From Candidatus Omnitrophota bacterium (GTDB taxonomy: Bacteria > Omnitrophota > Gorgyraeia > Gygaellales > Profunditerraquicolaceae), in assembly GCA_026387475.1 (NCBI GenBank), contig JAPLLN010000050.1, forward strand, positions 1-38,608: a DNA stretch of 38,608 nt, written 5' to 3'. A model generated the notes under the pieces. The model was not told the DNA's origin. It did no database searches and saw nothing but the letters and a program-made list of their open reading frames with translations. Position 1 is the stretch's first letter; each line of letters starts with the position of its first letter. Shown in pieces: positions 19,196-35,658 of this stretch. The position numbers were made by a program, and so were the translations under genes.

Positions 19196-19570
19196 TTATA
19201 TTACTTCGCCCAATATTACGCCGATCCTAAAAACTAAAAAACCTACTACCACGCTACTTAATATATTCGCGAATGCCCTAATGGATTCTCCGTCTTTTAT
19301 TAGGTTATTAGTCTCCAGGATAATGGTCGAGAACGTGGTGAAGGCCCCGCAAAACCCGATCATCAACAGAAGCTTTGCGTTAGAATCAAGCAAGAACTTG
19401 TTTTCAGAGACCGACACTAAGAAACCGATTATAAAACAACCGGACAGATTAACCGCCAGAGTCCCGTATGGGAAACTTGTTCCGAAGACCCTGTAGATAA
19501 ACCCGGACAATAAATAACGGGCTAATGTACCTATTGTACCACCGATAACCAGATTAATAAACTTTATCAT
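19196..19570 (-). CDS. crcB: Fluoride ion channel CrcB/Fluc
   Basis: From the ATG at 19570 the protein is 124 residues with four membrane helices. The family motifs are GGTIGTLARYLLSG near residue 9, a FGTSFPYGTLAVNLSGCFIIG segment with the conserved asparagine near residue 40, and GFCGAFTTFST near residue 75. Fluc channels are antiparallel dimers that let fluoride leave the cell. The start at 19570 is nine bases after AAGGAGG, whereas the longer frame from 19624 would translate the riboswitch, so it is rejected. The riboswitch directly upstream confirms the function. Confidence 0.96.
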   Translation of the reverse strand: MIKFINLVIGGTIGTLARYLLSGFIYRVFGTSFPYGTLAVNLSGCFIIGFLVSVSENKFLLDSNAKLLLMIGFCGAFTTFSTIILETNNLIKDGESIRAFANILSSVVVGFLVFRIGVILGEVI

Positions 19571-19585
19571 AAGATCTTCCCTCCT

Positions 19586-19620
19586 TAAAAATAAAAAACC
19601 CCTACTTTTATAAGTAGAGG
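19586..19620 (-). terminator. Intrinsic terminator of the fluoride riboswitch expression platform
   Basis: On the minus strand CCTCTACTT and AAGTAGGGG form a nine-pair stem with a four-base loop, followed by a run of six T and further T-rich sequence. The 5' arm of this stem is the 3' strand of the fluoride aptamer, so aptamer and terminator are mutually exclusive. Fluoride binding should favour read-through into crcB. Confidence 0.85.
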
Positions 19621-19675
19621 TCATCAGCCGGAATTTTTACGGCGGTTCCCTTAGGCGAACCTCATCGCCCTCCCA
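19614..19675 (-). ncRNA. Fluoride riboswitch (crcB motif)
   Basis: The minus strand reads GGCGATGAGGTTCGCC at 19669-19654, then a GC-rich hairpin, then GGCTGATGACCTCTAC ending at 19614. This matches the crcB-motif consensus: the P1 helix with GGCGATG, the GCTGATGACCTC segment, and GAGG in the first loop able to pair with CCTC to make the pseudoknot. Its location directly before crcB and the overlapping terminator support a transcriptional ON switch that responds to fluoride. Confidence 0.93.
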
Positions 19676-19686
19676 AATGTTAATCT

Positions 19687-21218: not shown

Positions 21219-23018
21219 TTACCACTGCAGCCTTACTCCGCCTTCAAGCCACCTGCCGGGCTGGGGTATACCCTCGATCTCTTCGTAATCAACGTTGCCT
21301 AAATTAGTCCCTTCAAAAAACACCTGCGAATTCCTGTTAATGTCATAGCTTAGGCGCATGCTAAGCAGAAACCATCCTCCTCTGCCGGGTTTTTTCTTAT
21401 AAACAAAACCCAGCTCCTGCGCCCCGAAAGGAAGATGGAAGATCAGCGCGCTGTTAAACAGATGCTTAGTGTAGTTCGGGCCGTATTTATAGATAAGCCC
21501 CGACTCGTTGATATTCTTATTAACGTAAGTATACCCGGCGTTAAGATCAGCGATCTTATTCAATTTTAGCTTTATGTTGTTTTCAAACCCGAGCACCTTA
21601 TCGCTGGTGATATTCTCCACCTGCCATTTGGCCTGGGACGGAGAATGTTTTACCCAGTCGATCACATCTTTCTCTTGTCTGAAGAAGAATGTCCCGTTAT
21701 AAGCGACACGGGAAGACTTAAAATCATATCCGGCCTGATAATTTAAGGCGCTCTCCGCGCTCAAATTCGCATCACCCAGGGTAGTCGGATCGCTGTAATA
21801 AAGTTCGGTAAACGACGGTATGCGCATACTGCGGGAAACCCCTAGATTAAAAGAATTAAAATCATTCAAGGAATATTTTAACGCGAGCGATCCGGTATTA
21901 ACACCGTCGAATGTGGAAAAATCGTCAAACCTGAACGATGCGCCCAAAGAAAGATTACCCGGCAGGTCCTTGGAATCATCCAGAAATATGCTCTGGTGCT
22001 CGCGAATATGTTTCCCCAGGTTGGAAGAGCGTATTAGTTCCTGCCCGTATTCAAGCCCCAGCCCCGCCTTACCTATAATACCGGCGTCCTTCTGAAAATA
22101 AATATTCGGGGTGAACATATCCGTGCGGTGGTCATTGCGGTAGGTTGAGCGCTGCAGGGTCTTATCCAAAAGGAATTTATCAAAGTGCCTGCGCCAGAGA
22201 AAATTAGGCTTAATAGTAAGGCCTTCTTTTTCCAGGACCAAACCGGTATTTAACAAGAAGGTCTTAGTCCACTCTTTTGATTCGTATTTACTGCCGGGAG
22301 TGTAAAAATCAAACGCGCCGAATTCTTTCTCCTGGTAACCGAAATTCAGATTAAATGCGCCGTTGGGAAGATCGACGCTCGAAGTTAAATTAGAAGTAAA
22401 CTTCCTGAAATCCGTATCCGGCTTAAAACCTCCGGACTGGGCGTTTTCAACCGAAATACGCGCGCCGATATTATTTATCTTATCGCTGGCGCTAAACAGG
22501 ACCGATCCGGTGCGATACTCTCCTCCTTTAAGCTCAAGGAAGAGTTTTCTCTCCTGCGGCTTCTTGACCTGAAAGTTTATAGCGCCCCCCATAGCATCCG
22601 GGCCGAAGACCGATGACCCGGCTCCGGGGATCACTTCAATACGCTCTAGATCCTGGCTGGTAAACGGCAGGTCGGAATTGTGATGCGCGGTCTGCGGGTC
22701 ATTGATGCGCTGGCCCGACAAAAGCATAAGCACGCCCTGAAAGGTCGAGCCTCGCAGAGAGAAATCCGTCTGGATACCTTCCTTTAACGAACGGCTCTGC
22801 AGGTCAACCGGAGTAATGCCCAGGGTCTCGACAGGCGAATCCGCGGGGAGGTCCCCGGCAGTATCGTATCTTACGCTATAGGCGCTGCTTAAATGCACCT
22901 TGGCCTTGCTTACGACAATGGGTTCGAGCTTAAATCCGGAATTATCTTCAGCCGCGACCGGGCCGCAGACAAGGAAGATCAAAATAAAAAATAAACCGTA
23001 TACCCTGTTTTTCAGCAT
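21219..23018 (-). CDS. TonB-dependent outer membrane receptor, probable biotin receptor
   Basis: The 599-residue protein has a signal peptide (residues 1 to about 23), a TonB-box-like EPIVVSK near residue 32, a plug domain with FSLRGSTFQGVLMLLSGQRIND and VFGPDAMGGAINF, and a 22-strand-type barrel ending in an aromatic residue (LQW). Its size is like BtuB. The ligand cannot be told from the protein. However, the promoter is overlapped by a BirA-type operator and birA is the adjacent upstream gene, so biotin or a precursor is the best inference. The ATG at 23018 lacks a ribosome binding site and lies at the predicted transcription start. Confidence 0.9.
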   Translation of the reverse strand: MLKNRVYGLFFILIFLVCGPVAAEDNSGFKLEPIVVSKAKVHLSSAYSVRYDTAGDLPADSPVETLGITPVDLQSRSLKEGIQTDFSLRGSTFQGVLMLLSGQRINDPQTAHHNSDLPFTSQDLERIEVIPGAGSSVFGPDAMGGAINFQVKKPQERKLFLELKGGEYRTGSVLFSASDKINNIGARISVENAQSGGFKPDTDFRKFTSNLTSSVDLPNGAFNLNFGYQEKEFGAFDFYTPGSKYESKEWTKTFLLNTGLVLEKEGLTIKPNFLWRRHFDKFLLDKTLQRSTYRNDHRTDMFTPNIYFQKDAGIIGKAGLGLEYGQELIRSSNLGKHIREHQSIFLDDSKDLPGNLSLGASFRFDDFSTFDGVNTGSLALKYSLNDFNSFNLGVSRSMRIPSFTELYYSDPTTLGDANLSAESALNYQAGYDFKSSRVAYNGTFFFRQEKDVIDWVKHSPSQAKWQVENITSDKVLGFENNIKLKLNKIADLNAGYTYVNKNINESGLIYKYGPNYTKHLFNSALIFHLPFGAQELGFVYKKKPGRGGWFLLSMRLSYDINRNSQVFFEGTNLGNVDYEEIEGIPQPGRWLEGGVRLQW

Positions 23019-23024
23019 ACGGTT

Positions 23025-23052
23025 ATTATAAAAGTTTAGAGCTAATTGTCAA
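23025..23052 (-). promoter_or_regulatory. Consensus promoter of the TonB-dependent receptor
   Basis: Perfect TTGACA (23052-23047) and TATAAT (23030-23025) boxes are separated by 16 bases on the minus strand. Only six bases lie between the -10 box and the ATG at 23018, so transcription should start at or next to the start codon. The -35 box is inside one arm of the BirA-like operator. Confidence 0.85.
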
Positions 23053-23077
23053 CCAATTATTTATTACTGGTTGACAT
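23046..23077. promoter_or_regulatory. BirA-type biotin operator
   Basis: TTGTCAACC (23046-23054) and GGTTGACAT (23069-23077) are inverted half-sites separated by 14 bases. This fits the described BirA operator architecture of TTGTnAACC-like half-sites in inverted orientation with a spacer of about 14 to 16. It overlaps the -35 box of the receptor promoter and the stop codon of birA, whose product has a DNA-binding domain. An alternative reading as a birA terminator is weaker because no T-run follows. Confidence 0.75.
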
Positions 23078-24033
23078 TACCTCGCATGCACCACGTCCCC
23101 GGCCATCACCTTCTTGATGACCCCCGAGTCTTTGCGGATGAGGAGCCCGCCGTCAATATCGATATTTACCGCCTCCCCCTCAATATGCTCCCTCTGGCAA
23201 TAGACCTTGACCCTTTTGCCCAAAGTCAGGCTGTATTCGCGCCATTTTTCCAGAACACCCTTGACTCCTTTTTGCTGCCAGGCCAGATAGTTATACTCCA
23301 TGCGGCGCAAGATTTCTTGCAAAAGCCCCACGCGGTTTAACTCCTCTTTTTTCTGCTCTTTTAATGAAGTAGCGCCGCTGATCAATGCCAATTTACCGTT
23401 ATTGACGTTCAATCCGATACCGATGACCACAAAATTTACCTTATCCATCTCGGCGTTAAGCTCCGTAAGTATCCCGCCGATCTTTTTATGGTGAATGAAT
23501 ATATCATTTGGCCATTTGATCTCACAGGAGATGCCCGTGAATTCCTTAATCGCCTCGACAATACTCACCCCCGCAAGAATGGTAAGTATCGAGGCCGAGT
23601 TAGGCAGGACCTTGGGCCTTAAGATCAAAGAGAAATATAATCCTTTATATTTAGGAGAAAACCAGTTTCGCCCCATCCTTCCCCTGCCCTTGGTCTGCGA
23701 TTCCGTCAAAACCAGCGTCCCGTCAACAGCGCCCTTCAAGCCGAGTTGCCCCGCGGCATCCATAGTCGAAGAGACGCTGTCAAAATATATTATCTTCTTC
23801 CCCAGTATCTGGGTATTCAGGCCGCGCAGGACTTCAAATTCAAATAATCTGTCCGGGGCTGACTCCAGGCGGTAGCCTAAATGCGGGACAGCCACGATAT
23901 CGTAGCCGTTATCGCGTAATTCCTGGATATGTTTCCAGAGCGCCTGACGGCTTACACCTAACCGTGAGCTTATCTGGTCGCCGGAAACATAATCCTGTTT
24001 CTTTCTAAGGGCTTCTAAGATTTTTTCTTGCAT
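23077..24033 (-). CDS. birA: Bifunctional biotin-protein ligase and biotin repressor
   Basis: The 318-residue protein has the full bifunctional layout. A winged helix occupies residues 1 to about 60, with SSRLGVSRQALWKHI as the recognition region. The ligase domain follows, with GRGRMGRNWFSP near residue 117, which binds biotinyl-AMP, and KWPNDIF near residue 175. A C-terminal SH3-like domain starts near residue 265. It attaches biotin to carboxylases and, when loaded with biotinyl-AMP, represses biotin genes. The operator beyond its stop codon shows a probable target. It lies 34 bases after the cysteine desulfurase gene. Confidence 0.95.
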   Translation of the reverse strand: MQEKILEALRKKQDYVSGDQISSRLGVSRQALWKHIQELRDNGYDIVAVPHLGYRLESAPDRLFEFEVLRGLNTQILGKKIIYFDSVSSTMDAAGQLGLKGAVDGTLVLTESQTKGRGRMGRNWFSPKYKGLYFSLILRPKVLPNSASILTILAGVSIVEAIKEFTGISCEIKWPNDIFIHHKKIGGILTELNAEMDKVNFVVIGIGLNVNNGKLALISGATSLKEQKKEELNRVGLLQEILRRMEYNYLAWQQKGVKGVLEKWREYSLTLGKRVKVYCQREHIEGEAVNIDIDGGLLIRKDSGVIKKVMAGDVVHAR

Positions 24034-33741: not shown

Positions 33742-35000
33742 TAGTCTTTCTCCTTTTTTGCCATCTGTTTAAACGCAAGCCTGGCAGCATCGATCGTGCG
33801 GATAATATCGCTTTTTTTGTGGCTAAAAGAAATGAAGTTAGCCTCAAATTCGGAAGGAGCAAGAAATATCCCCTTCCCAAGCATCAAACGGTAGAACGCA
33901 ACAAAATCTGCTTTCTTTTTGAATCTTAGGCTGAACATACTTTCATAGCTTGCCACATTTAAATCTATGCCGGATAAACCTGCCTCTCTGATCAGATTTG
34001 ATTTCAGATGATCAACAAGCTTCTTAAGCTGCGGATAACTGTTTTTAAGTTTGCGCAAAGCTCTTAATGTGCTTAAGCCTGACTGCATAACAACAGGGTT
34101 TCCGGAAAATGTGGATGCCTGGTAAACCTTACCCAAAGGGGCGAGATTATCCATAATTTTAGCTCTCCCTCCAAAAGCTCCGACAGGCAACCCTCCGCCG
34201 ATGATCTTGCCAAAGGTTATCAGATCAGGCGTGATCCCAAATTTTCCGGCAGCAGTCCCGTAATGGAACCTGAAACCCGTAATTACTTCATCAAAGATCA
34301 ATATCGCGCCGTGTTTTTTGGTGATCGCCCGGATTCTTTTCAAGAATTTAATATCCGGTGATATAACTCCGTAATTTCCTCCTACCGGTTCGACTATTAC
34401 CGCGGCAATTTGAGAGCCGAATTTGGCAAAAACCTTTTCTAAATATTTGCTATCTCCAAAAGGCGCAACTAAAGTATGCTTAATAAAATCTTTCGGCACT
34501 CCGGAGCTCGCAGGTATCTGTAATGTGGCTAAGCCCGAGCCGCTTTTGGCTAAAAGATAATCCGCGGAGCCGTGATAAGAATGTTCAAACTTTAAGATCT
34601 TGAGCCTACCGGTGTAGCCGCGGGCCAGGCGCACCGCCCCCATCACTGCTTCTGTTCCGGAATTAACAAATCGGATCTTATCAATAGACTTTACGGCCTT
34701 TTTTATCTCCTGGGATAATTCTATCTCTGTCTCACAGGTCAAACCAAAACTTAAACCCGCACCTATTTTTGCTCTTATATCCTTGACAACCCGGGGATGA
34801 GCATGGCCAAGAATAGCCGAGCCCCAGGAAAGGACATAATCGATGTATTTTCGGCCGTCGAGACCATAGAGGCCCGCGCCTTGGCCGCTTTTGATCAAAA
34901 TCGGCTCTCCGCCCACATAATTAAAACTGCGCACCGGGCTATCTACTCCGCCGACCAGGTTTTTATCGGCAACTTGCAATAAATCTTTCACTTTTGCCAT
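33741..35000 (-). CDS. hemL: Glutamate-1-semialdehyde 2,1-aminomutase
   Basis: The 419-residue PLP enzyme converts glutamate-1-semialdehyde to 5-aminolevulinate, the second step of the C5 tetrapyrrole route. Family segments are GGVDSPVRSFNYVGG near the N-terminus, SWGSAILGHAHP near residue 59, FDEVITGFRFHYG near residue 233 and the PLP lysine in ITFGKIIGGGLPVGAFGG near residue 263. It works with hemA in the same cluster. It overlaps the hemB remnant by 13 bases. Confidence 0.96.
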   Translation of the reverse strand: MAKVKDLLQVADKNLVGGVDSPVRSFNYVGGEPILIKSGQGAGLYGLDGRKYIDYVLSWGSAILGHAHPRVVKDIRAKIGAGLSFGLTCETEIELSQEIKKAVKSIDKIRFVNSGTEAVMGAVRLARGYTGRLKILKFEHSYHGSADYLLAKSGSGLATLQIPASSGVPKDFIKHTLVAPFGDSKYLEKVFAKFGSQIAAVIVEPVGGNYGVISPDIKFLKRIRAITKKHGAILIFDEVITGFRFHYGTAAGKFGITPDLITFGKIIGGGLPVGAFGGRAKIMDNLAPLGKVYQASTFSGNPVVMQSGLSTLRALRKLKNSYPQLKKLVDHLKSNLIREAGLSGIDLNVASYESMFSLRFKKKADFVAFYRLMLGKGIFLAPSEFEANFISFSHKKSDIIRTIDAARLAFKQMAKKEKD

Positions 35001-35658
35001 TTTGCGATATCCTTAGCGTGGTAGCTGATAATAAAATCAGCTCCCGCGCGCTTTATTGAAGTTATAATTTCCTTCACCATTTCTCTCTCATTCCACAAAC
35101 CCTGTTTTGCTCCGTATTTTACGAACGCGTATTCACCGCTTACATTATATGCAGCTGTCGGATAATCAAATTTGGTTTTTGCCTCCTTGATTATATCCAG
35201 ATAGCTAAGCGCAGGCTTGACCATCACCATATCCGCGCCCTCTTTGATATCCGTCTCGATCTCATCAAGCGCCTGCGAGGCCTTAGAATAATCTAACTGG
35301 TAAGCCGATCTATCCCCGAATGCCGGAGCGGAATTTGCGGCATTACGAAAGGGGCCGTAAAAATTAGAAGCGAACTTTGCGGAGTACCCTAATATCTTCA
35401 CCTTAGGTAACCCGTTTTTATCCAACGCCTTTCTTATTGCCTTAACCTGGCCTTTGGCTATAGCCGAAGGCGCTACCCAATCTACCCCTGCTTCAGCATG
35501 CCTCAATTATTTATCCCTAATGCGCGCGCCTCTTTGACATCGCTTAGCAGGCGATCAGGAGAAAATACGAAAACCCCGGGGAAATTATTAATTTCCTTCT
35601 TTAAATTTCTCCCGCTTTTTACAAAATAGGGATATATGAGCTTATTTAAACTTATCAT
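34988..35658 (-). pseudogene. hemB: Damaged porphobilinogen synthase (hemB)
   Basis: The gene is split into two frames. From an ATG at 35658 inside cobA, a 51-residue frame (with LIYPYFVKSGRNLKKEI and FSPDRLLSDVKEARALGI) matches the HemB N-terminal region and stops at 35503. The C-terminal frame, 172 residues from a TTG at 35506, carries RHAEAGVDWVAPSA, SAKFASNFYGPFRN and the catalytic MVKPALSYLD. Normal HemB is about 320 residues, so roughly 85 residues are missing at the junction. These include the CxCxxxxxGHC-type zinc cysteines. A frame change lies at the same point. Both catalytic lysine regions remain. It is either a deletion pseudogene or an assembly error. Confidence 0.85.

Follow-up and report, generated by a model that had tools for sequence, protein, structure and literature searches.

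The window, by which we mean the whole stretch of 38,608 nucleotides from a Candidatus Omnitrophota bacterium whose genome of 1.26 Mb is 82% complete, carries on its minus strand, in this order, a cysteine desulfurase gene, birA, a gap of 58 bp and a gene for a TonB-dependent receptor. The birA product (23077..24033, minus strand; 318 aa) is a biotin-protein ligase in which profile searches recovered an N-terminal winged-helix DNA-binding domain (HTH_11, PF08279, 4e-17) together with the ligase and C-terminal domains. The receptor (21219..23018, minus strand; 599 aa) has a signal peptide, plug and barrel domains that both score above cut-off (PF07715 and PF00593) and, as recognized by eye, a TonB-box-like LEPIVV motif. 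Its AlphaFold2 model is a plugged barrel (pLDDT 85), and it is the only PF00593 match in the 82%-complete genome, which also encodes two ExbD homologues.

The gap between the two genes contains an inverted repeat (23046..23077), TTGTCAACC (23046-23054) and GGTTGACAT (23069-23077) separated by 14 nt, which begins on the last base of the birA stop codon. Strictly counted it is a perfect 8+8 palindrome, TGTCAACC-N14-GGTTGACA, with its perfect core at 23047-23076 and the outermost pair (T/T) mismatched. The half-sites are close to those of the published BirA consensus, TTGTAAACC-N14/15-GGTTTACAA, and are the same variant as the Geobacter bioB and bioF sites, TTGTcAACC-N14-aGTTgACAA and TTGTcAACC-N14-GGTTgACgA (PMC545781); the 14-nt spacer also lies within the range of about 14-16 nt that marks BirA operators. 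On the minus strand the receptor-side half-site supplies the -35 box TTGACA (23052-23047), such that operator and -35 box overlap, and the -10 box TATAAT (23025..23030) follows at a distance of 16 nt, with the receptor ATG at 23018, 6 nt past it. An earlier note on this DNA had described a 9-N14-9 inverted site overlapping TTGACA, called it a BirA-type operator and assigned the gene upstream to a bifunctional BirA with a DNA-binding domain. All three points hold, the first exactly as to sequence save that the palindrome is 8+8 when strictly counted, the second by agreement with the published consensus and by conservation at receptor and bioB loci, and the third by the HTH_11 and ligase domains. 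Judged from these features, the palindrome is very probably the operator of the adjoining bifunctional BirA.

Given that TTGACA is common at promoters, a palindrome might fall across a -35 box by chance, but we regard this as hardly credible: 0.04 matches would be expected in the window at up to 3 mismatches, the sole match found is perfect, and the operator is conserved in dozens of genera. A search of the whole 1.26-Mb genome with the 8-base core pattern showed the perfect match to be unique, the strict 9-N-9 pattern giving no match in this genome because the outer base pair is unmatched. Five other matches in the genome have 3 mismatches each, hardly more than the two obtained with a reversed control pattern, and were set aside.

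A second element, absent from the earlier note, is nested with the promoter. A terminator-like hairpin, AACCGTATGCT / GGTATACGGTT (22994..23024, minus strand), sits astride the receptor start codon and is followed by a T-rich tract (22993-22983, minus strand). The minus-strand RNA 23026-22985 forms an 11-bp stem with a U-rich tract behind it, at -13.7 kcal/mol (shuffled sequences, -4.8; z -5.1), while an RNA starting at the receptor ATG cannot form the hairpin and folds at -2.6. The element thus has the make-up of a terminator, a stable hairpin with a T run, whose 5' arm lies upstream of the predicted start site. Equivalents are found in most relatives, with arms that vary in sequence and yet pair: arms from the same locus score 22.1 as against 14.5 when arms are swapped between loci (Wilcoxon p 1e-7, related genomes being included unthinned), and at 28 of 54 receptor loci the hairpin is equalled by no more than 1 of 60 shuffles. 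The -35/-10 spacer is 16 nt at 40 of these 54 loci and the ATG lies 6-7 nt past the -10 box at 35 of them. At most loci the -10 box and the start codon fall within or next to the hairpin. The 5' arm mostly lies ahead of the -10 box or around it, the exceptions being the window and seven other loci, where a hairpin starting after this box scores better. Several bioB loci show the same arrangement of promoter and hairpin. Furthermore, since there is no Shine-Dalgarno sequence between the -10 box and the receptor ATG, the receptor mRNA is probably leaderless. A transcript reading through from birA would include both arms and the T tract, whereas one initiated at the receptor promoter lacks the 5' arm and hence should pass. 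We therefore infer that the hairpin could stop read-through from birA and spare transcripts from the receptor promoter; nesting a promoter with a terminator-like hairpin in this way would compactly separate two adjacent co-oriented genes.

The region downstream of birA was read in 101 genomes of the order, in which the next gene is the receptor in 57, bioB in 18 and neither in 15, the contig ending first in the remaining 11. With at most two mismatches allowed, the operator is present at 54 of the 57 birA-receptor loci and at 15 of the 18 birA-bioB loci, and in all 69 of these sites the spacer is exactly 14 nt; at the other three receptor loci no clear site was seen within the scanned sequence. 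A looser palindrome gave seven matches in 128 genomes of the order, every one directly after birA. When a strict pattern combining operator and -10 box was run against 384 genomes of the phylum, it occurred at 29 places, 26 within the order and three outside, each before a receptor of this kind or bioB, with the exception of one before a receptor relic within the order. Individual genomes show the site before a receptor with no birA adjoining (G317), between birA and bioB (G392) and between birA and a receptor (G396). The bioB genes of relatives that lie far from birA also carry the operator. The earlier note had offered two checks on its claim: conservation before receptor orthologues, which is borne out by the 54 of 57 loci with their uniform 14-nt spacer, and recurrence at biotin genes, which is found before bioB in relatives, including a genome of the same genus (G042), with no second site in the window's own genome.

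These distributions also bear on whether the palindrome might serve birA itself, as a terminator or in autoregulation, and be unrelated to the receptor. Its start within the birA stop codon would fit such a role. However, it accompanies the receptor or bioB in six genomes in which birA sits elsewhere (G317, G084, G052, G026, G059, G116), it lies downstream of birA and so cannot repress the birA promoter, and the terminator-like hairpin is an element distinct from it. A role confined to birA is hence highly improbable, and an operator for the gene that follows is the preferred reading. Three loci show about 1-1.9 kb of other sequence separating birA from bioB, with the operator staying with bioB (L132 in G104, L140 in G109, L147 in G103); in G109 an operator-like piece also remains after birA. 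On the chromosome of Candidatus Velamenicoccus archaeovorus (L275), a receptor relative at the same locus follows the same larE-nifS gene pair with neither birA nor the operator beside it.

Among 30 bioB loci the site is present in 23 and absent from seven. All 23 loci outside one family (f7) have it, and BirA matches there generally include the winged helix; none of the seven f7 loci has it, and in that family the BirA alignment comes from the ligase part only (four genomes) or BirA was not found (three). The association of the site with a DNA-binding BirA at bioB loci gives a Fisher p of 5e-7, on counts entered by hand and from related genomes. As all seven siteless loci fall in f7, where a DNA-binding BirA was not found, the presence of the operator, as read from these sequences, follows the DNA-binding form of BirA.

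The genes behind the operator divide the genomes by how biotin is obtained. Where birA is followed by the receptor, bioB is absent from 56 of 57 genomes (present in one) and BioY is present in 52 of 57, which is the company expected of an outer-membrane biotin receptor; where birA is followed by bioB, all 18 genomes have bioB and one has BioY. The two genes occur together in just 2 genomes (Fisher p 1e-17, a value overstated since the genomes are related). On the BirA tree the neighbouring gene switches at least about 12 times, and supported independent pairs run in the same direction in nearly every draw, there being only 4 pairs (sign test p 0.125). The window's genome fits the first group: BioY is present on another contig, and profile searches of this 82%-complete genome found no bioB above cut-off and no bioF, the one weak bioB match probably corresponding to the ThiH-type gene of the window.

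The exchange is displayed most directly by the genome of the same genus, G042, whose BirA is 94% identical to that of the window over the first 193 residues. Behind birA and the site, at the exact position of the receptor, it has a complete bio operon in the order bioB, bioF, alpha/beta hydrolase, bioC, bioD and bioA, in which bioB and bioF were identified by search and the remaining genes were named from their translations. The birA gene of this genome (L186, 554-1457) is split across two frames, by either an assembly error or a real frameshift. A further genome, G116, has downstream of birA a receptor from which most of the interior has been deleted, with operator, promoter and signal sequence kept (L127); bioB is present in it with a BirA-type site of its own. 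That an entire set of biosynthetic genes has given way to a single importer gene, with the operator left as it was, is a clear instance of a lineage that shifts between synthesis and uptake of a vitamin.

Direct linkage of the receptor to BioY further supports a role in biotin import. BioY lies directly behind the receptor in G048, a receptor-BioY operon with the site is seen at L113, and three loci (L283, L286, L289) have a perfect BirA-type site before the receptor and BioY after it. BioY is also behind the receptor at L292, where the site is displaced onto the start of the reading frame. The order is reversed at L272-L274, where BioY comes first, with a perfect site (13-nt spacer) upstream of it and the receptor after it. 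No other perfect site occurs in 342 kb of comparison loci, bar one at L270, a birA-receptor locus that did not belong in this set. None of 30 loci with a stand-alone BioY gene has a BirA site there, and neither does BioY of the window's own genome.

The receptor itself is related by sequence and by fold to BtuB, Cir and FepA, the nearest solved relatives; BtuB, the TonB-dependent receptor for B12, is the closest solved structure to the model (TM-score 0.84, 16% identity). Such a fold is compatible with a substrate other than biotin, and BirA could control a receptor for cobalamin, heme or a siderophore, the demand for which follows biotin status. The BirA regulons of Desulfovibrionales, which take in fatty-acid genes (PMC5343134), agree with a reach of this regulator beyond biotin. 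Nevertheless, the receptor scores 77 bits against the 600-bit cut-off of the B12-receptor model TIGR01779 and so falls outside that family, no cobalamin riboswitch precedes it or eight paralogous receptors within the stretches scanned, and the sole riboswitch match in the window is a fluoride riboswitch. Moreover, the receptor replaces bioB, tracks biotin auxotrophy and shares operons with BioY. Together these observations make another cargo distinctly unlikely, and single out the receptor as a strong candidate for an importer dedicated to biotin in the outer membrane.

In light of the above contextual connections, we propose that a single import receptor of the outer membrane very probably stands under the control of BirA, and think it quite likely that the whole is best explained by a receptor that takes up biotin or one of its conjugates and is repressed by holo-BirA. 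When biotin is plentiful, biotinoyl-AMP-BirA would dimerise on both half-sites, a step modelled on known BirA biochemistry, cover the -35 box and shut the receptor promoter. Under biotin shortage BirA would be used as ligase, the promoter would open and the receptor mRNA, probably leaderless, would be made. The receptor, powered by TonB-ExbB-ExbD, could then carry biotin or a small biotin conjugate over the outer membrane, after which BioY might move the cargo across the inner membrane. With birA transcripts presumably halted by the hairpin around the start codon, receptor expression would hinge solely on the promoter that BirA controls. The comparative sequence evidence shows the operator, the promoter boxes, the hairpin, their conservation and the replacement of the receptor by the bio operon, and speaks for common regulation and a common function.

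In bacteria that have been studied well, porins let biotin (244 Da) through, so the need for a TonB-dependent receptor is not obvious. A variant in which the cargo is biotinylated peptides, biocytin or another biotin conjugate, and not free biotin, would account for an energised receptor acting on such a small vitamin, and could suit the host-dependent lifestyles proposed for Omnitrophota (PMC10066038). Against it, free biotin is what BioY, the partner in the inner membrane, is so far known to handle, and we hold this variant to be possible, though on the whole unlikely. The earlier note had the receptor importing biotin or a precursor; the former, or a conjugate, is favoured here, and a precursor is unlikely because neither bioB nor bioF was found.

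Comparison with described systems helps separate the familiar from the new. BirA operators, TonB-dependent receptors and BioY have each been described before, and the locus shares with the BirA biotin regulon (PMC545781) its half-sites, the 14-15 nt spacer, a bifunctional BirA and biotin-gene targets in relatives; it differs in that the sole target found in its own genome is an outer-membrane receptor, whereas the BirA regulons described in the papers covered hold biosynthesis and fatty-acid genes. The receptor resembles BtuB in structure, but is preceded by a BirA-type operator and associated with biotin genes. Like operons of the ECF biotin importer BioY, several Omnitrophota loci and L272-L274 have receptor and BioY adjoining, unlike the window's genome with BioY on another contig. 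Repression of a TonB-dependent receptor by its vitamin is known from the riboswitch-controlled outer-membrane receptors for B12 and thiamin, the difference being that the sensor here would be a DNA-binding ligase. What appears new is a receptor under a BirA operator: our partial coverage of the literature, which is weak evidence of absence, brought up no TonB-dependent receptor described as belonging to a BirA regulon or as serving biotin.

The receptor tree places the receptors under BirA-type operators in at least two divergent subfamilies that are about 31% identical. On the available sequences we consider it moderately probable that they constitute a dedicated family of biotin TonB-dependent receptors, repressed by BirA, repeatedly exchanged with the bio operon behind the same operator, comprising at least two subfamilies and transcribed from a promoter nested in the birA terminator. 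If so, a BirA-controlled receptor would provide a dedicated biotin route through the outer membrane, usually credited to porins, and a testable substrate for receptors of many uncultured phyla. A perfect BirA-type site occurs just 5' of a related receptor in another phylum, in Candidatus Firestonebacteria (L288). The motifs NDPQT-[AG]H, GA-[YDF]-DFY and PSFTELYY are the signature of a receptor family spread over many phyla (Elusimicrobia, Ignavibacteria, Calditrichota and others); its members mostly have no BirA-type site and are possibly further biotin receptors.

Elsewhere in the window, the fluoride riboswitch (RF01734, 52 bits; 19608-19678, minus strand) lies immediately before crcB (19196-19624) and a DUF190 gene. 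A porphobilinogen synthase gene (34988-35506, minus strand) matches positions 155-324 of a 327-position model, that is its second half only, and the uroporphyrinogen-III methyltransferase gene next to it leaves scant room for the first half, the partial match reflecting either a truncated gene or an assembly fault.
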